Part shown: positions 42,856 to 53,848 of the stretch, piece by piece
Layout: every line of letters begins with the position of its first letter
Numbering within the stretch: the stretch's first letter is position 1
DNA from: Leptolyngbya sp. Heron Island J
GTDB lineage: Bacteria > Cyanobacteriota > Cyanobacteriia > Phormidesmidales > Phormidesmidaceae
Assembly (NCBI RefSeq): GCF_000482245.1
Contig: NZ_AWNH01000112.1
Span: 1-64,000 of the forward strand
DNA length: 64,000 bases
Direction of reading: 5' to 3'
Translations under genes and position numbers: made by a program
Notes under the pieces: model-generated
The model's database searches: none
What the model was told of the DNA's origin: nothing
Seen by the model: only the letters and a program-made list of their open reading frames with translations

Positions 42856-43326
42856 CTACTCTGGAGAATCAATTAATCCTGGATGATCCTCTGGACGAGG
42901 CCCTGGTGCAGGCCAGAAAAACCGACGTTCTGCTTCAGCAATTGGCTTATCATTAATGCTGGCCTCTCGCCGTCGCATTAAGCCATCTTCGTCAAATTCC
43001 CAATTCTCATTGCCATAGGCGCGATACCACTGACCGGCATCATCATGCCATTCGTACTGAAAGCGCACTGCAATCCGATTCTCACCAAACGCCCACATTT
43101 CCTTAGTTAACCGATAGTCCAGTTCCTTATCCCACTTGCGGCTCAAAAACTCTCGGATTGCATCTCGTCCCTGAAAAATCTCAGCCCGATTACGCCAGTG
43201 GCTATTTTCTGAGTAAGCCATGGAAACCCGCTGTGGATCTCTACTGTTCCAGGCATCTTCTGCCATACGAACTTTTTTAACAGCAATCTCATAGGTAAAT
43301 GGGGGGACCAGTTTCGAAGCTGACAT
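42856..43326 (-). CDS. NTF2-like (SnoaL/DUF1348) protein
   Basis: 156 residues from ATG 43326, preceded by AGGA at nine bases; a TTG two codons upstream is less likely. DUF1348 blocks are clear: [99 protein letters not shown]. The cone-shaped alpha+beta fold holds small molecules, and several family members are enzymes or carrier-like. Substrate unknown. Its promoter faces the OsmC promoter. Confidence 0.85.
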
Positions 43327-43548
43327 GGGCAAGAATCCTGATTAATCAGTCAAATGGTGAATTCGGAGTTCATTCTCCTTATATATACCCCTCAGTGTTG
43401 CCAGTTAGATGGGACGAACTTTTGGAAAACTAGGATTTTCTTGAGGGTCTCAGTGTTGTTTATTTTTACCAATTAATAACATTGACCTTTCACCTCCCAG
43501 AAGTTTCTTGTATCTTAAATAGAGTGATCATTCTACTTGGATAGAACC

Positions 43549-44091
43549 ATGGCCGAAGCAACTACCGTGACCGCCGAGGTAAAAGCACCGCTTACTCCCA
43601 TTCCTCAAGACGGTCTAACAGATTTAGCCGCTAAGAATAAGGCCAACCCTGCCGATAAAACCCTGAAGGTTAAAACTGTCTGCACAGGCAAGTTTCGCAG
43701 TCTTAACTATGCCCGTGACCTGGACGCGTTTGCCATTGATGAGCCTCCTGTTCTTTTGGGAGATAATACCGCACCTAACCCATCTGAGATTGTATTGGGA
43801 GCCCTGGGTTCCTGTTTGGTGGTGGGCATTCAGGCCAATGCAGCTGCAAAAGGCGTTACTTTAACTAAGCTAGAAATCTCCCTAGAAGGCGATATCAACA
43901 TTGTTAGCACCTGGGGGACTGGAGAATTAGCAAAGCCTCAGGCTGGGTTTACTGACGTCCGCGTTAAGGTAGACATCGACGGTGATGCTGACCGGGCAGT
44001 ACTAGAGGAAATGGTGGCCCATGCGAATACCTGGTCACCGGTGTCTGCGACATTAAGCAATCCTATGCCGGTATCGGTTTCAACGGTTTAG
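43549..44091 (+). CDS. OsmC-family protein
   Basis: 180 residues from ATG 43549 (MAEATTVTAEVKAPL). OsmC/Ohr fold: FRSLNYARDLDAFAIDEPPV, LLGDNTAPNPSEIVLGALGSCLVVGIQANAAAKG with the single conserved Cys, then LEISLEGDINI. The second peroxidatic Cys of Ohr is missing, so it is not a classical organic-hydroperoxide reductase. The one-Cys OsmC group has unknown substrates. It is divergent from the NTF2-like gene and upstream of the acyl-CoA-dehydrogenase-like gene. Confidence 0.83.
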   Translation: MAEATTVTAEVKAPLTPIPQDGLTDLAAKNKANPADKTLKVKTVCTGKFRSLNYARDLDAFAIDEPPVLLGDNTAPNPSEIVLGALGSCLVVGIQANAAAKGVTLTKLEISLEGDINIVSTWGTGELAKPQAGFTDVRVKVDIDGDADRAVLEEMVAHANTWSPVSATLSNPMPVSVSTV

Positions 44092-44371
44092 TTGGCACTG
44101 TTGGATTAAATTTATCTAAAGTCGGAGTTTCTCATGCTAGAAACTCCGGAAACTTCTCTTTAACCTTTTCGTCTCTGGTTTAGGGCATTTCTTGCCTGCA
44201 TTCGTTTGGGTAATGTCAGCTCTGGCAACCACTACAATATTTTTGGAATCGCTAGATCTCTATTAGGTTTTCCATCTTAGTTTTCAATCTTCAAACATCT
44301 AACCCAGCGATCATCACGTCCCGCTTTATCAGCCCAACTCAATACATCGGCCTTATATACAGAGCATCGCC
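44092..44371. other. Intergenic region with a hairpin
   Basis: 280 bases. A stem CGGAGTTTCT / AGAAACTCCG (44123-44132 with 44139-44148) probably ends the OsmC transcript, though no T run follows directly. No NtcA-type site was found before the next gene. Confidence 0.5.
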
Positions 44372-45541
44372 ATGCAAACCATTTCAAAATCATCGAGTCA
44401 TAAGGCATCTTTGGAAACCTTAGATTCAGATCCGGCTATTGCTAACCTACGCACTGTAATTAATCAAGTACTGACACCTAAGGTGCAAGACATTGATCTC
44501 AAAGGAGAGTATCCGGAGCAGATTATGCATCAGCTAGGTGCTACCAATGCCTTTGCCCATGCAGTATCCACAGGCTACCAGGGGTCGGGTAAAGGATTGA
44601 GAACAGCTATTCAAAGCATTGAAGAAATCTCTAAAGACTGTCTTTCGACCGGATTTATTGCCTGGTGTCAGGTGGCCTGCACCTGGTACTTAGAAAACAC
44701 TCAGAACACGACGCTGAAAGCAGAGATGCTGCCTAAAGTCGCTACTGGTCAGGTGCTAGCTGGTACTGGGTTATCAAACCCCATGAAGCATTTTGCCGAT
44801 ATTGAGAAAATTGCCCTGACGGCGACGCGTGTAGACGGTGGCTACATCATCAACGGCCTGCTGCCCTGGGTATCTAATTTGGGGCCTGGCCACTATTTTG
44901 GGATTGCTGCCAAACTGGCTGATTCGGAAGACTACATGATGGCGATTGTTTCCGATGCGCTAGAGGGGATGTCACTGCGGCTTAATGCTCACTTTATTGC
45001 CCTAGAAGGGACAGGCACCTATAGCTGTGTATTTCGCGATACCTTTGTGCCAGATGAGTGGGTTTTGGCGTCTCCCTGTGAGGAGTATGTCGCCTGCATT
45101 CGCCCTGGATTTATTTTGACCCAGATGGGGATGGGGTTAGGATTAGCCGATAGCTGTATTGAGCTGATGCGTCGGTCTAATAAGCGTCTGGGGCATGTGA
45201 ATTGCTATTTAGATGATCAAGTTGAAGACCTGGCTGATGATTTGCACATGGCTCGGTTGCACACCTACAGCCTGGCTGATCAGCTGAATGAATGTACAGG
45301 TCTGGCTGATCCACAACTGAATCGCGAGATTATTCAAGCCCGAGTAACCGGTGCAGAACTCTCGTTACGATCTGCTCAAGCGGCCATGCTGCATGCAGGA
45401 GCCAGGGCCTATGTGCATGGTAGTCCGGCAGAGCGTAAGTTGCGGGAGGCTTATTTTGTGGCAATTGTGACTCCCGCTCTCAAGCATCTGAAGAAGATGT
45501 TGGCTGATATGAAGCAGCAACCAGCTTTATCGGTTGCCTAA
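44372..45541 (+). CDS. Acyl-CoA-dehydrogenase-fold flavoprotein
   Basis: 389 residues. The three-part acyl-CoA dehydrogenase fold is present: N-terminal helices, beta domain (GTGLSNPMKHFADIEKIALT, VDGGYIINGLLPWVSNLGPG, FVPDEWVLASPCEEYV), C-terminal helices (MGMGLGLADSCIELMRRSNK). The usual catalytic Glu cannot be assigned with confidence. The sequence is closer to the SfnC/DszC-like flavin monooxygenase-type members than to fatty-acid enzymes. Its place between OsmC and a nitrogen-regulated binding-protein gene suggests a role in handling an N- or S-containing organic compound; that is inference only. Confidence 0.75.
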   Translation: MQTISKSSSHKASLETLDSDPAIANLRTVINQVLTPKVQDIDLKGEYPEQIMHQLGATNAFAHAVSTGYQGSGKGLRTAIQSIEEISKDCLSTGFIAWCQVACTWYLENTQNTTLKAEMLPKVATGQVLAGTGLSNPMKHFADIEKIALTATRVDGGYIINGLLPWVSNLGPGHYFGIAAKLADSEDYMMAIVSDALEGMSLRLNAHFIALEGTGTYSCVFRDTFVPDEWVLASPCEEYVACIRPGFILTQMGMGLGLADSCIELMRRSNKRLGHVNCYLDDQVEDLADDLHMARLHTYSLADQLNECTGLADPQLNREIIQARVTGAELSLRSAQAAMLHAGARAYVHGSPAERKLREAYFVAIVTPALKHLKKMLADMKQQPALSVA

Positions 45542-45708: not shown

Positions 45709-45722
45709 GTATCCGTTAATAC
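45709..45722 (+). promoter_or_regulatory. NtcA-type site upstream of the first binding-protein gene
   Basis: GTATCCGTTAATAC is GTA-N8-TAC, 69 bases before the ATG at 45791. The nearest TAN3T is TATGAT at 45755-45760, 32 bases away, which is longer than the usual 20-24. TAATTA at 24 bases is a weaker -10 candidate. Confidence 0.5.
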
Positions 45723-45790: not shown

Positions 45791-47407
45791 ATGAAATCGG
45801 TCACCGATCAGTTCCGTCAGTGGGATAGTCTTTCTTGCCAATATGGTGAGATTAGTACTATTCCGCCACGCTGCTTTGTTTGCGGAAGTTATCATTCTAC
45901 TCAGGACCACTGGCGTTTGATGGCTGAGTCGGAGATGCCCCAAGAACCGGCTGATCTGATCGATGATCTGGCTAAAATGCGGCTTTATAAGCCAGAGGCC
46001 ATTGAGACTGCTGATGCTATTAGTCAGGCAGAGCTACGAAAGGCTCTGTTTGTGAGTAAGGTGGGCAAGGGCAGCCCCAAGCGAGAGCGGCTGGTTCGGG
46101 ATTTAATTGACCTGGCAGGCGGTTTGGATCAGGCGTTTGGTGCAGCCTTTGGGCCTAAGGCTGGAGAGTTTTTTAGTGATGCTCAGCGCATCAGTCAGGT
46201 AACTCGGCGTAAGTTTTTACAGAACATTGCTGTAGGGGCAGCTTTAGTTACTTTGGCTAACTGTGCCGATTCAGCCGAGGTCGCTGATGATCCTCAAGGG
46301 TCTGTTGCTAGTGCTCCTGCTGGCTCGTTGGAGAAAACGAGTCTGAAGCTAGCGTTTTTGCCGATTACCTGTGCGACCCCGATTATTATGTCGCAGCCCC
46401 TGGGTTTCTATGAGAAGCATGGTCTCGATGTGGAGCTGATGAAATATGCTAGCTGGTCGGTGGTCAGGGATGCTGCGATCGCAGGTGAACTGGACGCCTA
46501 CCACATGCTGGCTCCCATGCCCATTGCCATGTCCCTTGGCTTGGGGTCCACCCCCTTCTCAGTGAAGCTAGCCAGCATTGAGAACAACAACGGCCAGGGT
46601 ATTGCCGTTGCCAACAAACACCTGGGCAATATCAACGGTCCCGCTGACTTTAAGGGCATGACCATCGGCATTCCCTATGACTATTCCAATCACAACCTGC
46701 TGTTGCGTTACTACCTGGCCACTGGCGGGTTGGATCCAGACAACGATGTCAAGCTGTTGATTTTGCCCCCGCCAGATGCGATCGCAAAAATGGCCACTGG
46801 TCAAATCGATGCCTTTATCCTGCCCGACAACTTTACCCAGCGAGTGGTGCAGGATGACATTGGTTTCATTCATCTCTTAACCAAAGACCTGTGGGAAGGG
46901 CATCCCTGCTGTGCCTTTGTAGCTGCTCAGAATTGGATTGATGAACACCCCAACACATTCCGCGCCCTCAACAAGGCCATTATTGACGGGGCTACCTATG
47001 CCAACAATCCAGCCAACCGTAAGGAAATTGCAGCGGCTATTGCCCCTCGTGAATATCTGAACCAGCCCTTACCAGTGCTAGAAGCTGTCATGACCGGTCA
47101 GTTTGAAGATGGTCAGGGCAACACCTTTGACATTCCCGATCGGATTTACTTTGACCCCTACCCTTGGAAGAGTTTTGCCAGCTGGATTACTACACAGCTC
47201 GTACGCTGGGATTACACTTCGGCGGATAAGATTGCCGACGGTGGTCGAGAGTTCTTCTTGACAGATCTAGCGCGGGAACTCGCCTTAGAACTGGGTGTGG
47301 ATTCACCAGAGGAAATCTCACGGATCGAAAAGATGAAGTTTGGCGATTTTGACCCAGATAAGGCCGATGAGTACTTGAAAGAGCAGGTTGATAAGTTTGG
47401 TGTTTAA
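45791..47407 (+). CDS. NrtA/CynA-family substrate-binding protein with N-terminal Cys/His domain and internal Tat signal
   Basis: 538 residues. Residues 1-135 form an extra domain with CFVCG-x2-H-x4-HW (Cys28, Cys31, His35, His40) and a helical part (EPADLIDDLAKMRLYKP, ELRKALFVSKVGKGSPKRER, AFGAAFGPKAGEFFSDA). Then comes a Tat motif TRRKFLQN (Arg139-Arg140), a hydrophobic stretch and Cys158 (TLANC). The rest (about 180-500) is an NMT1/NrtA-type binding domain (LAFLPITCATPIIMSQPLGF, AGELDAYHMLAPMPIAMSLG, HPCCAFVA). It shares all parts with the gene at 49931. No permease is adjacent; it may use the downstream CynBD transporter. Confidence 0.85.
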   Translation: MKSVTDQFRQWDSLSCQYGEISTIPPRCFVCGSYHSTQDHWRLMAESEMPQEPADLIDDLAKMRLYKPEAIETADAISQAELRKALFVSKVGKGSPKRERLVRDLIDLAGGLDQAFGAAFGPKAGEFFSDAQRISQVTRRKFLQNIAVGAALVTLANCADSAEVADDPQGSVASAPAGSLEKTSLKLAFLPITCATPIIMSQPLGFYEKHGLDVELMKYASWSVVRDAAIAGELDAYHMLAPMPIAMSLGLGSTPFSVKLASIENNNGQGIAVANKHLGNINGPADFKGMTIGIPYDYSNHNLLLRYYLATGGLDPDNDVKLLILPPPDAIAKMATGQIDAFILPDNFTQRVVQDDIGFIHLLTKDLWEGHPCCAFVAAQNWIDEHPNTFRALNKAIIDGATYANNPANRKEIAAAIAPREYLNQPLPVLEAVMTGQFEDGQGNTFDIPDRIYFDPYPWKSFASWITTQLVRWDYTSADKIADGGREFFLTDLARELALELGVDSPEEISRIEKMKFGDFDPDKADEYLKEQVDKFGV

Positions 47408-48673
47408 TTAACCTAGATGACCGATCTCGGAGTCTCTCCTAGGAGAGACTCCGAGATCGGCGTGGGTCTCAATAACTGGCAACGACAACGGCAAGATCAC
47501 CTTAAACGTTGTCCCCTTGCCCAGCTGACTTTTTACCTGAATATCTCCCTGCTGGAAATCAACAAACTGTTTGACAATACTTAGACCTAATCCAGTACCT
47601 GGAATGTTGCTGACATTCTTGCCTCGGTGAAACGGTTCAAATAGATGGGGATAATCTTCCGGCGGAATTCCTAAACCGTTGTCTTTGACTACAAATACTG
47701 CCTGTTCCTTATGGCGGAATAGAGACAGATAAACAGATCTGCCATCAAGGGTGTAGCGAACAGCATTAGACAGAATATTGGTCAAAATTGAACGCAAAAG
47801 CGTTTGATCCAATTTGGCAATCAAAGGTTTGTGTCTGCCAGTGAATTCCAGCTGCCCCGTTTGTGAGGGCAGTTCTGTCAGCAGATTACGACAAAAGTCG
47901 ACAAGATTTAGGGGCTCAGGATTGAGGCATAAGCGCTTGGCTTCCAACTTGCCAAGCACTAAAATATCGTCGATCATCTGAGTCATGCGCTCAACATTCT
48001 CTTTAATATTCAGAAGATATTGATTTTTCTGTGACTGCGATAATTGTTCGTCATATCGATTTAAAGAGGAGACTGACAGCGCAATATTATTCATTGGATT
48101 GCGAAACTCATGGCATACCATGGAGACAAATCTGGACTTGAGGTCACTCAACTCCCGCAATCGCTCATTGGCTGCATAGAGCTCGGCTGTCCGCTTTTTG
48201 ACTTTGAGTTCTAAATCTTCGTTGGTCTGTTGCAAAACCGTCTCAGCCCACTTGCGTTGGCTGATATCGCGAAAGGTCACCACCGCCCCAATCAGTTCGC
48301 CATGTTCATTGCGCATGGGCGTACTAATGTATTCCACTGGGAAACAGGTACCATCCTTACGCCAAAAGACTTCATCGGTAACCCGTTGCACATGCCCTTG
48401 TTGGAAGACCCCATAGATCGGACAACATTCTCTGGGATAGGGACTGCCATCAGCATGGGAATGATGTAGGACTCGATGCATTGACTGACCGATCAAATCC
48501 TCCATCTCCCAATCGATCATGGCAGCGGCCGCTGGATTTACAAAGGTAACATTGCCCTGCAGGTCTAACCCATATACCCCCTCTCCCACGGCATTGAGAA
48601 TTAGCTGATGTTGACGGCGTAGAGCTTCAAGTTCGTCATGTTCTGAAAGGCTAGCGGCATCACGTGGTTCCAT
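47408..48673 (-). CDS. PAS-domain sensor histidine kinase
   Basis: 421 residues, soluble. A PAS domain (about 25-145, AVGEGVYGLDLQGNVTFVNP, DGSPYPRECCPIYGVFQQGH) is followed by a coiled coil, HisKA (MVCHEFRNPMNNIALS with the phospho-His) and HATPase (NILSNAVRY, DNGLGIP, GTGLGLSIV). The PAS core contains CC followed by PIYG, which may bind a cofactor or metal. Its last 15 codons are encoded by a perfect 40-base palindrome. The divergent gene encodes an AraC-type response regulator, so the pair likely forms one system. Confidence 0.9.
   Translation of the reverse strand: MEPRDAASLSEHDELEALRRQHQLILNAVGEGVYGLDLQGNVTFVNPAAAAMIDWEMEDLIGQSMHRVLHHSHADGSPYPRECCPIYGVFQQGHVQRVTDEVFWRKDGTCFPVEYISTPMRNEHGELIGAVVTFRDISQRKWAETVLQQTNEDLELKVKKRTAELYAANERLRELSDLKSRFVSMVCHEFRNPMNNIALSVSSLNRYDEQLSQSQKNQYLLNIKENVERMTQMIDDILVLGKLEAKRLCLNPEPLNLVDFCRNLLTELPSQTGQLEFTGRHKPLIAKLDQTLLRSILTNILSNAVRYTLDGRSVYLSLFRHKEQAVFVVKDNGLGIPPEDYPHLFEPFHRGKNVSNIPGTGLGLSIVKQFVDFQQGDIQVKSQLGKGTTFKVILPLSLPVIETHADLGVSPRRDSEIGHLG
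47421..47460. terminator. Perfect 40-bp palindrome at convergent gene ends
   Basis: Arms of 20 bases each (47421-47440 CCGATCTCGGAGTCTCTCCT and its exact reverse complement at 47441-47460) with no spacer. It lies 14 bases after the stop of the binding-protein gene and within the 3' coding end of the convergent kinase gene. It probably acts as a two-way terminator or RNA stabiliser without a T run. Confidence 0.65.
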
Positions 48674-48688
48674 AAAGCTGTTTAAGAC

Positions 48689-48702
48689 TGTAGTGCACTA
48701 CA
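48689..48702. promoter_or_regulatory. Perfect 14-bp palindrome upstream of the kinase gene
   Basis: TGTAGTGCACTACA lies 16 bases before the kinase start codon, in the 220-base gap to the divergent AraC-type regulator gene. It is a candidate operator. It is not an NtcA site because the GTA and TAC are separated by six bases, not eight. Confidence 0.45.
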
Positions 48703-48895
48703 CTACGACTGGTTCCTAAAACCCTTAAACCTGTTAGTTAAGCATACAAAATGCTCTCAGCAGAGAGTAGGTCATTGCTGATTTATTGGAGCCATCGATC
48801 TAAAATGATTGGTTAGAGCTGGTCAGATTTGTTTTTTCTGGAGGTCAGCAACGGCAAGAGTATTGTCTTAATTTCCATCTTAGATGGTAGGGGCC

Positions 48896-49681
48896 ATGGT
48901 GAAAACGATTCTGGTCATTGAAGATGAGGCCCAAACAAGAGAAATTTTTCTCCGCTGTTTGAAATTTGAAAAGTTCAAAGGTATTGGCGCAGAAAATGGG
49001 TCTACTGGCGTTAGATTAGCGACAAAACATCGTCCTGATCTGGTGGTTTGCGACATTATGATGCCAGACATGAATGGCTATGAGGTGTTGACCTCCCTCA
49101 GAAGAAACGATGTGACGGCTGCAATTCCATTGATCTTTTTGACAGCCAAGGTGACAATGGCAGACCTCCGACAGGGTATGACTTTGGGGGCCGATGACTA
49201 TTTGACAAAACCCTGTACGGTAGAGACTTTTTTGGATGCGATCGCATCTCGACTAAAACGCCAGGACGAGCTTAAACGTGGGCTGCGGCAGACGTCTGCC
49301 CCGCTGCTTTCGACTCTACCCCCACAAAAAAGCATGCCTGTCAAAACAATTTTCCCCGACTGCCCTCGCCTAGCGGCGGTCTTTGAATTTATCGAAGCCC
49401 ATTACCAACAGCCCATTAACCTGACTGACGTGGCCCAGGCTGTTGGATATTCTCCCGCCTATCTAACCAATCTATCCCAAAGCCATACAGGACGCACGGT
49501 AAAAGCGTGGATTATTGAACGGCGAATGGTTCAGGCCCGTCAATTGTTGACCAGCACGCCCGAATCCATCAAGCATATTGCCGAGTCCATCGGCTACACC
49601 GATGCTGGTTACTTTACTCGACAGTTTCGCAAACTACATGGTGTCACACCACAGGTTTGGCGGAGCCACCCCAATTCGTAA
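48896..49681 (+). CDS. Response regulator with AraC-type DNA-binding domain
   Basis: 261 residues from ATG 48896 (GGGG six bases upstream); four codons earlier is another ATG. The receiver (about 1-125) has LVIEDEAQTRE, phospho-Asp in LVVCDIMMPDMNG, and Lys in YLTKPCTV. The AraC/XylS HTH pair (about 155-258) has LTDVAQAVGYSPAYLTNLSQ and IKHIAESIGYTDAGYFTRQFRKLHGVTPQVWR. With the divergent PAS kinase it makes a two-component system between the two binding-protein genes, which are its obvious candidate targets. Confidence 0.88.
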   Translation: MVKTILVIEDEAQTREIFLRCLKFEKFKGIGAENGSTGVRLATKHRPDLVVCDIMMPDMNGYEVLTSLRRNDVTAAIPLIFLTAKVTMADLRQGMTLGADDYLTKPCTVETFLDAIASRLKRQDELKRGLRQTSAPLLSTLPPQKSMPVKTIFPDCPRLAAVFEFIEAHYQQPINLTDVAQAVGYSPAYLTNLSQSHTGRTVKAWIIERRMVQARQLLTSTPESIKHIAESIGYTDAGYFTRQFRKLHGVTPQVWRSHPNS

Positions 49682-49930
49682 CAATTGCAACAAAACAACG
49701 CTAAAAATACCTAACAGACTTAAAAAGTCCTAGTTTTTCAAAAAATAATCCAATGTAATCCATAGAAGGGATTGGTATAAATTTTACTATCAAACCCCTA
49801 CAATCAGCTTAGTTCGTGTCCAAGGGTAGGGCTCTATTGTAAAGGACATTACAAGTTTTCGCTTGGATGCCGTTTAACTTACTTGGATAACCAATAGTCT
49901 CAGTCAACGCTAGTTAAGGTGAGTAATCCT
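49682..49930. other. Promoter region of the cyn operon
   Basis: 250 bases between the AraC-type regulator and the operon. It includes the NtcA-type promoter at 49839-49880. No reading frame. Confidence 0.6.
49839..49880 (+). promoter_or_regulatory. NtcA-activated promoter of the cyn operon
   Basis: GTAAAGGACATTAC (49839-49852) is GTA-N8-TAC, followed after exactly 22 bases by TAACTT (49875-49880), a TAN3T -10 box. The predicted start is about 45 bases before the ATG at 49931. Confidence 0.8.
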
Positions 49931-51571
49931 ATGGTTTTAACCTCCGCACACACTGATCAAAGGTGGAACAATCTAAATTGCGATCGCGGCAATCTCACCG
50001 ATTTTCAGACGGCCTGCATCATCTGTGGTGGAGCTCACCTGACCCAGTCCCATTGGGAATTCTTACAAACCATGCCCCAGGACCCAGTGGAGATGGTGGA
50101 TGACCTGATGAAGATGGGGCTGTATAAGGATCAACAGCTGCGAGCTGCCGATAATGTCAACGCCTACGAACTTCGCAAGACTCTGTTGCTCAAAGCAGCG
50201 GGCAAAGGTGATCCAAAGCGTGAAAAATTGGTACTGGCCCTGGCAAGACAAGCGGGCGGGATTGAAAATGCGTTTGCAGCGGCCTTTGGCCCCCAAGCCG
50301 GACTGTTCTTTACCGATGCCATTCGCAACAGCCAATTTACTCGTCGAGAGTTTCTTAAGAACTTAGCCATTGGTGCGGCACTAGTGACCCTCAGCAACTG
50401 TGGCCCTAATTCCCAGCAAGCGGCATTAGAAGAAGATGCCGCCGCTCCGGTGGATGTTTCTAACCTGGAGAAAACGGATCTCAAGATTGGTTTTATTCCC
50501 ATTACCTGTGCTACGCCCATTATTATGTCCGAGCCCTTGGGCTTCTACTCCAAGTATGGGTTTAATGCCGAGGTTGTCAAAATGCCCAGTTGGGGTGCCG
50601 TACGAGACTCTGCCATTGCTGGAGAATTGGACGCCTATCATATGCTTGCGCCGATGCCAATTGCCATGACCCTGGGCCTAGGGTCTGCATCCTTTGGTGT
50701 CAAACTTGCTAGTATTGAAAATATTAATGGACAGGCCATTACAGTTGCCGAGCGCTATAAAGGGCAGGTCAACGGTCCAGCGGACTTTAAGGGCTTTACC
50801 ATCGGCGTTCCGTTCCCCTATTCCATGCATAATCTGTTGCTGCGCTATTATCTAGCAACTGGGGGTATCGACCCCGATGTGGACGTTAAGATTCGCCCCG
50901 TACCGCCACCGGATAGCATTGCCCAGTTGATTGCTGGAGATATTGATGCTTACTTAATGCCCGATCCCTTTAATCAGCGTGCCGTCTTTGAAGGGGCTGG
51001 GTTTATCTTTAAGCTGACTAAAGACCTATGGCCAGGTCATCCCTGCTGCGCATTTGCCGCTAGCGATCAGTGGATTGATGCCAATCCTAATACCTTTAGA
51101 GCGCTGAATAAGTCCATCATTGAAGCCGCTGGCTATGCTAGTGACCCGGCGAATCGTCCTGAAATTGCTAAGGCAATCTCCGAGAGAGCATTTCTTAATC
51201 AGCCAGTTGAGGTGGTTGAGGCTGTGCTGACCGGTAACTTTGAGGATGGTCAGGGTAACACCCTGAGTGTGCCGGATCGAATTGACTTTGATCCATATCC
51301 TTGGCAGAGTTTTGCCAACTGGATTTCTTCGCAACTGGTGCGTTGGGATTTACAAGGAGATGGTAAAGCTACTCAGGTTATTACCAGCGAAACCTATAAT
51401 CAGATCGGGAAAGATATTTTCTTAACTGATTTAGCTAGAGAGTTAGCTCAGGAGGTGGGGCTTAACCCACCGGAGGATATTTACCGCACTGAAACCCTTG
51501 AATTCGATACCTTTGACCCTGCTGATCCAGCAGCTTATGTCAAAGAGCAAATTGATAAAAATGGTGTTTAA
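49931..51571 (+). CDS. cynA: Cyanate-type ABC transporter substrate-binding protein with N-terminal Cys/His domain
   Basis: 546 residues from ATG 49931, preceded by AAGGTGAG at seven bases; a GTG at 49919 overlaps that site and is rejected. The same plan as the protein at 45791: Cys29, Cys32, His36, His41 (CIICGGAHLTQSHW), helical segment ending AFGPQAGLFFTDA, Tat motif TRREFLKN (Arg138-Arg139), hydrophobic stretch and Cys157 (TLSNC), then a full NrtA/CynA-type domain (IGFIPITCATPIIMSEPLGF, DSAIAGELDAYHML, GHPCCAFAAS). It is first in the order cynA-cynB-cynD-cynS known from Synechococcus cyanate/nitrite transport. Confidence 0.85.
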   Translation: MVLTSAHTDQRWNNLNCDRGNLTDFQTACIICGGAHLTQSHWEFLQTMPQDPVEMVDDLMKMGLYKDQQLRAADNVNAYELRKTLLLKAAGKGDPKREKLVLALARQAGGIENAFAAAFGPQAGLFFTDAIRNSQFTRREFLKNLAIGAALVTLSNCGPNSQQAALEEDAAAPVDVSNLEKTDLKIGFIPITCATPIIMSEPLGFYSKYGFNAEVVKMPSWGAVRDSAIAGELDAYHMLAPMPIAMTLGLGSASFGVKLASIENINGQAITVAERYKGQVNGPADFKGFTIGVPFPYSMHNLLLRYYLATGGIDPDVDVKIRPVPPPDSIAQLIAGDIDAYLMPDPFNQRAVFEGAGFIFKLTKDLWPGHPCCAFAASDQWIDANPNTFRALNKSIIEAAGYASDPANRPEIAKAISERAFLNQPVEVVEAVLTGNFEDGQGNTLSVPDRIDFDPYPWQSFANWISSQLVRWDLQGDGKATQVITSETYNQIGKDIFLTDLARELAQEVGLNPPEDIYRTETLEFDTFDPADPAAYVKEQIDKNGV

Positions 51572-51607: not shown

Positions 51608-52447
51608 ATGGCCTTAAGTAAGCCAGCTTTAAATAAAATTAATAGCGTTGACAGTAGGTCACCATGGCTTAATGAGAATGTCAAGGCGTTGGGCCTATTT
51701 GTTATTTCGCTCATTCTTTTCTTAGTGTTTTGGGAAGTTGGTGCCAACCTAGAGTTGTTTGCTAAAGGGATGCCCACCGCTTCTAAAACGCTGCAAGAGC
51801 TATGGTGGTGGACTACTCATCCCTTTTTTGATAATGGCCCCAACGATTTAGGCATTGGGTGGAATTTATTAATTAGTTTGCGACGTGTGGCAATTGGTTA
51901 CATTTTAGCCTCTGCGATCGCAGTTCCCCTGGGCATTCTCATTGGGATTTCACCCATTGCCTATAAAGCCTTTAACCCTTATGTACAGCTCCTAAAACCA
52001 GTCTCGCCGCTAGCCTGGTTACCTTTAGGACTCTACATATTTCGAGATTCCGAAAAAACGGGCGTCTTTATCATTTTGATCTCCAGTATCTGGCCAACGC
52101 TGATTAATACAGCCTTTGGTGTTGCCAATGTAAGTCCAGAGTATCTAGATGTCTCCAAAACATTAGGAGCATCAAGGTTGCGGACCATCTTTAAGGTGAT
52201 TATTCCAGCTGCTTTACCCAATATTGTCTCCGGTTTACGGATCAGTATGGGCATCGCCTGGCTGGTGATTGTGGCGGCTGAAATGCTTTTGGGGACTGGG
52301 TTAGGCTACTTTATCTGGAATGAATGGAATAATCTCTATATTCCGAATATTTTAGTTGCGATTTTCATCATCGGTCTGGTTGGGCTCATCTTAGACAGTA
52401 TGTTTGGTGCCCTCGAAAAATTTGTTGCGTTTGGGCGTAAAGCATGA
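51608..52447 (+). CDS. cynB: Cyanate ABC transporter permease
   Basis: 279 residues with about six membrane helices ([52 protein letters not shown]). The ATPase-contacting EAA-type loop reads [20 protein letters not shown] with the conserved Gly, as in NrtB/SsuC/TauC. AAGGAGGTG precedes the ATG by 7 bases. It starts 37 bases after cynA, and its stop overlaps the ATPase start by ATGA, so they are translationally coupled. Confidence 0.9.
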
Positions 52448-53343
52448 GCATTGCTTCCGTCAATTATTCCAATAATGGTGCCGTATCTCCTGAACCTGAA
52501 TTTCCTTCGGCCCAGCTTTCCATTCGGAATGTTACCAAGGTGTTTGCAGGCAAACGGGATATCTTCAGTAGGTTGTCAGGTAAGACAAGCCGAGATTTTG
52601 TCGCCATTGAAGACATCAGTTTAGATATAGAACCGAATACATTTGTCTCTATCATTGGTCCTTCGGGCTGTGGTAAGTCGACATTGCTCAATATGGTGGC
52701 CGGGCTATCCCCCGTTACTGGGGGTGAAATATTGCTGAATGGTCACCCCATTCAAGGTCCTGGTCCCGATCGAGGCATGGTTTTTCAGAACTATGCTCTG
52801 ATGCCCTGGATGACCGTTGAAGAGAATATTCGGTTTGCGGTTGAAACCGTTTTTCCCAAGCTGTCACCCAAGCAAATGACTCGTGCCATTAAAGAGCAGA
52901 TTCAGTTAGTGGGGCTAGAAGGGGCTGAGAAAAAGCATCCCCATGAACTTTCAGGAGGTATGCGGCAAAGGGTCGGCATTGCTCGTGCTTTAGCGATTAA
53001 TCCTCAGATTTTACTGATGGATGAGCCCTTTGGAGCCCTGGATGCTTTAACTCGTGGCTTCCTACAGAGCGAAGTTGAGCGCATTTGGGAACAACACCGG
53101 AAGACCGTCATCATGATCACCCACAGTATTGAGGAAGCCTTATTACTGTCGGATCGCATTGTGATGATGACTCGCGGGCCAGCTGCTCGCATTGACGAGA
53201 TCCTCGAAGTCCCCTTCCCGCGACCTCGCGATCGAGAAACCATCGATCAGCATCCGGCCTACCACGATCTTAAGGCCGAAATGGAACACCATCTGTTCCG
53301 TGAAACCCGTGCTGTTGAAGAGTCTCGTATCCAGGTTAAATAA
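52444..53343 (+). CDS. cynD: Cyanate ABC transporter ATP-binding protein
   Basis: 299 residues. Walker [11 protein letters not shown]-loop [10 protein letters not shown], signature [14 protein letters not shown], Walker [13 protein letters not shown] and H-loop [10 protein letters not shown] are all present: a complete NrtD/SsuB-type nucleotide-binding domain. There is no fused substrate-binding C-terminal domain as in NrtC. The N-terminus is extended by about 30 residues ([20 protein letters not shown]). It overlaps cynB by four bases. Confidence 0.9.
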
Positions 53344-53404
53344 ATTAGAGCTGCGTTAAGCGTTATTCCTGTTTAAGTTTTGCAATCAAGAGGTGATTTT
53401 TGCG

Positions 53405-53848
53405 ATGGCCATTTCTGAAATCTCTGCCAAGTTTCTTGCAGCAAAGAAAGCCAAAGGGTTATCATTTGCCGATTTGGAAGCCAAGCTAGGCTATGACGAA
53501 GTCTGGATTGCATCAGTACTGTATCGTCAGGCTAGTGCTTCAGAAGAAGAAGCCACCAAAATTGTTGAAGCTCTGGGCATGGGAGCAGAATATGTTGAGT
53601 ATCTGACTGAGTGTCCTGTAAAAGGTGGTTTAGACCCGCTTGTGCCCACCGACCCCCTGATTTATCGCTTCTACGAAATCATGCAGGTTTACGGTATGCC
53701 TGTAAAAGCTGTCGTCCATGAGAAATTTGGCGATGGTATCATGAGTGCGATTGACTTCTCCATTGATGTAGAAAAGGAAGAAGATCCCAAGGGCGATCGA
53801 GTCAAGGTGATCATGTGTGGCAAATTCTTACCTTACAAGAAATGGTAG
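53405..53848 (+). CDS. cynS: Cyanase (cyanate hydratase)
   Basis: 147 residues from ATG 53405; GAGGTGA sits nine bases upstream, so the GTG at 53393 inside that site is rejected. It converts cyanate plus bicarbonate to ammonia and two CO2. The N-terminal helical, HTH-like domain ([32 protein letters not shown]) and the C-terminal catalytic domain ([20 protein letters not shown] with the active-site Arg and Glu; [20 protein letters not shown] with the Ser) are complete. It follows cynD by 60 bases. Ammonia and CO2 both serve a phototroph. Confidence 0.96.

Follow-up and report, generated by a model that had tools for sequence, protein, structure and literature searches.

The window analyzed here comprises 64,000 nucleotides from Leptolyngbya sp. 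Heron Island J (contig NZ_AWNH01000112.1, positions 1 to 64,000 of the forward strand), a strain with an 8.06-Mb genome whose best matches point to kinship with Adonisia turfae. Two genes within the window encode related substrate-binding proteins of the NrtA/CmpA type (NMT1-like family, PF13379), SBP1 and CynA (SBP2), and in both an N-terminal domain (the N-domain, or head) with conserved Cys and His residues precedes an internal twin-arginine translocation (Tat) signal. The features of the two genes are as follows.

45791..47407, + strand: SBP1, solitary CynA-type substrate-binding protein of 538 amino acids (PF13379, 241.8 bits), no permease adjoining
45791..46201, + strand: N-domain of SBP1, residues 1-137, predicted cytoplasmic; no family of Pfam or NCBIfam scoring above cut-off; conserved across an alignment of 49 sequences
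45872..45910, + strand: C-x2-C-G-x2-H-x4-H motif of SBP1, residues 28-40
46202..46264, + strand: internal Tat signal of SBP1 (TRRKFLQN, hydrophobic stretch, LANC); TIGR01409, 19.2 bits (cut-off 16.7)
49931..51571, + strand: CynA (SBP2), ATP-binding cassette (ABC) transporter cyanate-binding protein, 546 amino acids from the ATG (PF13379, 259.9 bits), followed by cynB, cynD, and cynS
49931..50338, + strand: N-domain of CynA, predicted cytoplasmic
50015..50053, + strand: C-x2-C-G-x2-H-x4-H motif of CynA
50339..50401, + strand: internal Tat signal of CynA (TRREFLKN, hydrophobic stretch, LSNC); TIGR01409, 21.2 bits (cut-off 16.7)

A third CynA-type paralogue with the same N-domain is located elsewhere in the genome (G000:C43:164227-165834), with no transporter genes nearby; it is 77% identical to SBP1, and the binding domains of SBP1 and CynA share 65% identity. 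All three paralogues have ~137 residues before the Tat motif, including C-x2-C-G-x2-H-x4-H-W and a conserved helical part that ends in AFxAAFGPxAGxFFxDxxRxSQ, which bears out an earlier description, made from the DNA letters without database searches (the sequence-only reading), of a conserved Cys/His domain in front of an internal Tat signal in the two window proteins. The motif reads C28-FV-C31-G-SY-H35-STQD-H40-W in SBP1 and CIICGGAHLTQSHW in CynA. A genome-wide DNA-pattern search for it returned six matches, three of which are the paralogues. Across the 49 aligned sequences, C31, H35, and H40 are invariant and C28 is >90% conserved, and a C-x1-2-C-x2-4-H-x4-H pattern occurs in 73 of 77 full-length proteins; the motif is therefore more than a chance arrangement. 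Based on this conservation, the N-domain putatively binds a metal through its Cys/His residues, and the metal is probably zinc, held in a predicted Cys2His2 finger.

The nearest in-frame ATG, GTG, or TTG before the Arg pair lies 27 codons upstream in SBP1 and 38 codons upstream in CynA, leaving no start codon within 26 and 37 codons, respectively. We estimated ratios of nonsynonymous to synonymous substitution rates (dN/dS) from nucleotide comparison of near relatives, some pairs of which were saturated. The helical part had values of 0.02-0.16, similar in range to the binding domain (0.01-0.13), and the post-signal linker had values of 0.18-0.73; the Cys/His segment had values of 0.00-0.10, apart from 0.53 in one pair so closely related that synonymous changes are nearly absent. 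Since no start codon is nearby and dN/dS is low, we conclude that the N-domain is translated and constrained as a protein, and, by these ratios, it is under strong purifying selection. Together with the fact that most proteobacterial RefSeq starts include the finger, this rules out a start-site artefact, as the sequence-only reading had argued. That reading had also placed both genes correctly; for the second, a start at GTG 49919 is less likely than one at ATG 49931, because a AAGGTGAG stretch precedes the latter and homologues begin there.

A profile search with residues 1-135, which had been proposed as a check, matched no known family. More broadly, nothing convincing was found for the N-domain in Pfam, NCBIfam, PHROGs, PDB sequence profiles, or PDB folds, and the Pfam zinc knuckle gave no match; a match to RNA polymerase Rpb10 (E 0.04) was rejected because it rests on the CxxCG turn alone. 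AlphaFold2, run with the 49 sequences, predicted helices at residues 37-46, 53-62, 68-76, 79-92, 96-109, 112-120, and 123-130 and a signal helix at 139-160, with a mean predicted local distance difference test (pLDDT) score of 69.5 and the best values at residues 80-115; the full-length model has the same helices. Foldseek and VIA-align identified nothing above background for the predicted N-domain fold; given the middling model confidence, a missing fold relative in PDB does not establish a new fold. We found no description of the N-domain in the literature searched, and this metal-binding-looking domain is apparently undescribed.

We scanned one genome per species for the N-domain, and we separately surveyed 292 cyanobacterial genomes. 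The species scan identified 49 loci, all of them cyanobacterial, including Leptolyngbyaceae, Nodosilinea, Hyella, and Snowella. In the 292-genome survey, an intact N-domain protein was present in 24 genomes, alongside one decayed remnant and two chance matches. The remnant (G289, L140:4065-4421) was considered as a different fusion; it is instead a frameshifted N-domain with a Tat remnant and no binding domain, that is, a decayed cynA. The remote matches in G069 and G136 were dismissed as chance, the former being a restriction-enzyme-like protein of 1126 amino acids. A search with the binding domain was bimodal: 24 genomes have a CynA-type protein with 63-100% identity in an open frame of 531-595 codons, whereas, among the matches listed, all others are ≤42% identical (NrtA, CmpA, NrtC, and CmpC types) and have no N-domain. 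The 24 genomes with the N-domain are the same 24 that have a CynA-type protein, and all 24 encode cyanase, compared with 70/292 overall. By sequence, the N-domain is thus diagnostic of CynA. The sequence-only reading did not know the domain from nitrate or cyanate transporters; this holds for NrtA and CmpA, which are without it, but not for the cyanate system, in which CynA keeps it in 24/24 genomes. In 15 cyanobacterial NrtA/CmpA controls and one Sphingobium NrtA, the Tat motif lies a few residues after the Met.

Neither the species scan (49 loci) nor the 292-genome survey identified an intact N-domain that stands alone or is fused differently, and we therefore consider that it works on or with CynA itself. 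Solitary binding proteins without an adjoining permease also keep the head. In small-genome cyanobacteria (L073-L076, 1.7-2.3 Mb), the motif is a Cys-rich variant, HGYLCACVECRPIGNDH (C-x-C-x2-C ... DH), and the N-tail is longer.

Our sample of proteobacterial CynA proteins was taken from plasmids, where they mostly occur with cynB, cynD, and cynS and often with a sigma-54 regulator alongside, as is known in Pseudomonas (PMC6627978). In these proteins, C-x-C-G(-x-H) precedes an internal Tat motif by 40-60 residues. The Cys motif reads GGCSCGAHASQAAH in Methylobacterium, GCTCGRHESQDAH in Bosea, GCACGQHASQSEH in Caballeronia, and GCRCGKHVNQAEC in Moraxella; partial forms (CGCG, CQCG, CSCGAH, CACGQPHH, and CFCC) occur in Loktanella, Acetobacter, Bradyrhizobium, and others. 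Using TBLASTN, we aligned the proteobacterial N-terminal pieces against all plasmids and retrieved members of the CynA family only. In a maximum-likelihood tree, NrtA-type rows separated from CynA-type rows at 100/99 support; C-x1-2-C before the Arg pair is present in 43/43 CynA-type and 0/16 NrtA-type rows, and the fuller pattern of two Cys, His, and His/Cys is present in 35 of the 43. The cyanobacterial helical part was not recognizable in the proteobacterial spacer, and a profile comparison of the two aligned the Tat segment only. Because the proteobacterial proteins also have C-x-C-G(-x-H) before the Tat signal, the finger is ancient, and cyanobacteria added the helical bundle to it. In the simplest history, the finger would arise once, where the CynA branch begins, followed by gain of the bundle in cyanobacteria and repeated loss of His; the tree does not force a single gain.

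A CynA-like sister branch from rhizobia and relatives (L125, L144, L145) adjoins genes for nitrilase-type hydrolases and a molybdopterin oxidoreductase, and in L145 also an aldoxime dehydratase, which suggests uptake of nitrile-related compounds. Of the finger, the proteins of this branch retain the Cys portion. Isocyanic acid is reactive towards thiols, and the head is restricted to cyanate systems and this nitrile-linked branch; the Cys/His site might then itself react with, or be blocked by, cyanate/isocyanic acid or cyanide and so adjust CynA export. Several proteobacterial members are without the His residues, and we regard such direct chemical sensing as very improbable.

Both window proteins exceed the cut-off of the NCBIfam Tat model. 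They have the S/T-R-R-x-F-L-K motif and h-region of Tat signals, and the signal is not N-terminal but follows the ~137 conserved residues; in the 49 sequences, R139 and F142 are invariant and R140 is >90% conserved. The hydrophobic stretch after the Arg pair averages 1.35 over 19 residues, which is normal for a Tat h-region and weak for an anchor. No hydrophobic segment was found in residues 1-135, where the best 19-residue mean is 0.75-1.04. According to the rules of Tat export, the part before the Arg pair remains on the cytoplasmic side (PMC7317946), and the N-domain is therefore expected in the cytoplasm if the signal is used, as the sequence-only reading had proposed.

That reading had further proposed that the signal holds the N-domain as a membrane anchor. 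Among the 77 cyanobacterial proteins, 73 have a lipobox-like site after the hydrophobic stretch (loose pattern) and the other four have Ala-x-Ala-like sites; this site reads LANC or LSNC in the window proteins, with an Asn at -1 that is unusual for a lipobox, and LASC in most homologues. Proteobacterial CynA proteins have AxA-type cleavage sites in place of the lipobox. Because cleavage sites are kept, the binding domain is probably cut free as a lipoprotein or soluble protein, and the head probably remains inside with the signal remnant. With these sites kept and a weak hydrophobic stretch, a permanent transmembrane tether is unlikely, and the proposed lasting anchor finds no support. This speaks against a lasting transmembrane layout and not against a role inside the cell: since the post-signal site shifts from lipobox to AxA while the finger and internal Tat signal stay, it is the inside part that is conserved rather than anchoring of the mature end.

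The remaining features of the locus lie upstream of SBP1, between the two binding-protein genes, and downstream of cynA.

45709..45722, + strand: NtcA-type site GTATCCGTTAATAC (GTA-N8-TAC), 82 nt 5' of SBP1, consensus match
47408..48673, - strand: PAS - HisKA - HATPase histidine kinase with no clear transmembrane segment (best 19-residue hydropathy 1.18)
48884..49681, + strand: response regulator with AraC-type DNA-binding domain, occurring in 10/24 N-domain genomes
49839..49880, + strand: NtcA-type promoter, GTAAAGGACATTAC - 22 nt - TAACTT, 92 nt 5' of the CynA ATG, consensus match only
51608..52447, + strand: CynB permease (TIGR01183, 211.5 bits, cut-off 209.05)
52444..53343, + strand: CynD ATPase, 299 amino acids, without the C-terminal regulatory domain of NrtC/CmpC (TIGR01184, 319.9 bits)
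53393..53848, + strand: CynS cyanase (TIGR00673, 211.6 bits, cut-off 113.3)

Based on family scores, gene neighbours, and co-occurrence with cyanase, what had been called a nitrate or cyanate transporter can now be assigned: a cynABDS operon encodes the second window protein, which is its CynA and is predicted from family and operon to bind and deliver cyanate. SBP1 has no such operon and lies beside OsmC and acyl-CoA-dehydrogenase-like genes. The promoter before cynA matches the canonical NtcA layout (GTA-N8-TAC, 22 nt, TA-N3-T), and the site before SBP1 lacks a -10 box that fits at the expected spacing. NtcA-type sites are no commoner than chance across the whole window, and the NtcA assignment therefore rests on position. 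Upstream of SBP1, positions 42856-45541 hold DUF1348/SnoaL-like, OsmC, and acyl-CoA-dehydrogenase-like genes. Genes for OsmC and/or acyl-CoA dehydrogenase, with rubredoxin or flavin oxidoreductase, are likewise located next to cynABD(S) in Moraxella (L122) and Acetobacter (L124) and next to cynABDS in a cyanobacterial genome (G054, L149); these neighbours may belong to a pathway that feeds cyanate from some compound.

Between the paralogues, the PAS kinase had been recognized earlier, and the AraC-type response regulator is to be added. The kinase and regulator are syntenic in many loci, and the kinase looks soluble; actinobacterial Rieske proteins, moreover, are held in the membrane by a non-cleaved internal Tat signal (PMC4383559, PMC7317946). 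CynA might thus keep its signal uncleaved, with head and outer binding domain as one molecule that reports cyanate binding inward, for example to the PAS kinase. Set against the retained lipobox-like or AxA-like sites, the weak hydrophobic stretch, and the proteobacterial relatives, which have a sigma-54 activator, we consider this reporter improbable. An interaction with the kinase had been suggested from the window; because 14 of the 24 N-domain genomes are without the response regulator, and with a sigma-54 regulator used in the proteobacterial relatives, a kinase partnership is unlikely as a general role.

A natural experiment is provided by an S. elongatus-like genome (G292), from a small family that also holds G036. 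Its cynABDS has a frameshift inside the N-domain (L156:3078-4668), such that open reading frame 1 holds the finger and first helices, and a separate frame of 451 codons holds the last helices with the Tat signal and binding domain. In the related genome G036, cynS occupies the same setting and cynABD is absent, and a metagenome-assembled relative (L051) is likewise broken within the N-domain. In S. elongatus PCC 7942, the cyn cluster is reported to transport cyanate and nitrite and to be inhibited by ammonium through PII (PMC6627978, PMC4390861, PMC6603209). Should the frameshift be genuine and the strain tested carry it too, uptake itself would not need the finger, which would speak for a role in regulation or quality, or for a passive role. 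The head could be a stable n-region that shields the Tat signal, avoids the Sec route, or stabilizes the precursor, with a structural metal site; consistent with this, proteobacterial and cyanobacterial heads share little beyond the finger, and the S. elongatus-like copy has no finger in frame. The invariant Cys/His residues, low dN/dS over distant lineages, and retention in streamlined 1.7-Mb genomes exceed the needs of a passive tail, which makes a passive extension unlikely.

Some form of regulation from inside is favoured by the fact that CynD lacks an ammonium-control domain of the NrtC type, yet the transporter is controlled by ammonium: in S. elongatus, it is shut off via PII (PMC4390861), and its ATPase is without the regulatory domain of the nitrate transporter (PMC6603209). 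The receptor domain for this inhibition is not known (PMC4390861; PMC6603209), CynD has merely 299 amino acids, and the head is restricted to CynA. The head, as a remnant-anchored or free peptide, might therefore dock on CynB/CynD, possibly with PII, and gate cyanate import in place of the NrtC/CmpC regulatory domain. Several observations, however, leave such docking doubtful: solitary binding proteins without an adjoining permease keep the head, proteobacterial relatives have the finger alone, a frameshift interrupts the head in the S. elongatus-like genome, and signal remnants are usually degraded.

The reading we prefer, with a probability of about 0.38, is that the N-domain is a cytoplasmic, likely metal-binding pre-export domain that acts on the folding of CynA or on the licensing or timing of its export by Tat; the other option is that the head is left inside to regulate the transporter. 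By sequence, the architecture is ancient, restricted to the CynA clade, under purifying selection, and independent of the kinase. We infer metal binding, a cytoplasmic location, and cleavage of the CynA precursor from these patterns; a control function of the head is a guess, which we place ahead of regulation at the transporter, a passive extension, sensing across the membrane, and signalling through the kinase. The CynA-type precursor would carry a cytoplasmic head, consisting of a Cys2His2 finger (probably zinc) and, in cyanobacteria, a helical bundle, followed by the Tat signal. The binding domain would fold in the cytoplasm, be exported by Tat, and be cut at the lipobox-like site, with head and signal remnant staying on the inner face. 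The head would hold back or license export in response to folding, to metal, or to the cyanate/nitrogen state. Loading of a metal or cofactor ahead of export is a candidate role. More specifically, and only tentatively, an ancient metal-finger domain may gate Tat export or transport activity by internal cyanate/nitrogen state and be cut off as the binding protein leaves.

Four points weigh against an export role. His residues are lost in several proteobacterial members; the nitrate and bicarbonate relatives use Tat without such a domain; the predicted fold has middling confidence (mean pLDDT 69.5, finger 57-73) and no informative match; and a genuine frameshift that PCC 7942 also carries would mean that uptake itself does not need the finger. 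A layout kept in nearly all cyanobacterial CynA proteins, and in shorter form in proteobacteria, suggests that an unrecognized intracellular step of control precedes or accompanies export. ABC-importer binding proteins are generally regarded as working solely outside the membrane, and a conserved domain predicted to remain inside could be a missing control element; it belongs to the cyanate system of many cyanobacteria, including those with small genomes. CynA also offers a natural test of the size limit of a folded part preceding a Tat signal.

Among known systems, the closest are the CynA proteins of cyanobacterial and proteobacterial cynABDS operons, which have the same binding domain, the order CynA-CynB-CynD-CynS, and co-occurrence with cyanase; they include the second window protein, and the N-terminal domain of these proteins has no Pfam or NCBIfam entry. 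NrtA and CmpA share the PF13379 fold family and Tat signal with CynA and have a lipobox where CynA has a lipobox-like site; however, their Tat motif lies a few residues after the start, they have no Cys/His domain, and they are ~31-35% identical to CynA. The CCHC zinc knuckle (C-x2-C-x4-H-x4-C) and SEC-C (C-x-C-x8-C-[CH]) likewise place additional Cys/His ligands after a short C-x(1-2)-C-G turn, but the CynA spacing, C-x2-C-x3-H-x4-H (or C-x-C-G-x-H-x5-H), differs from both and gave no profile match. The C-terminal domain of NrtC/CmpC is the cytoplasmic regulatory part of a sister transporter, and the analogy is functional only, as its sequence is unrelated and it is located on the ATPase rather than the binding protein. 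In the actinobacterial Rieske protein QcrA, an extended N-terminal part likewise precedes an internal Tat signal (PMC4383559); in QcrA, this part consists of transmembrane helices and the signal is uncleaved, whereas in CynA the N-terminal part is soluble and cleavage sites are kept.

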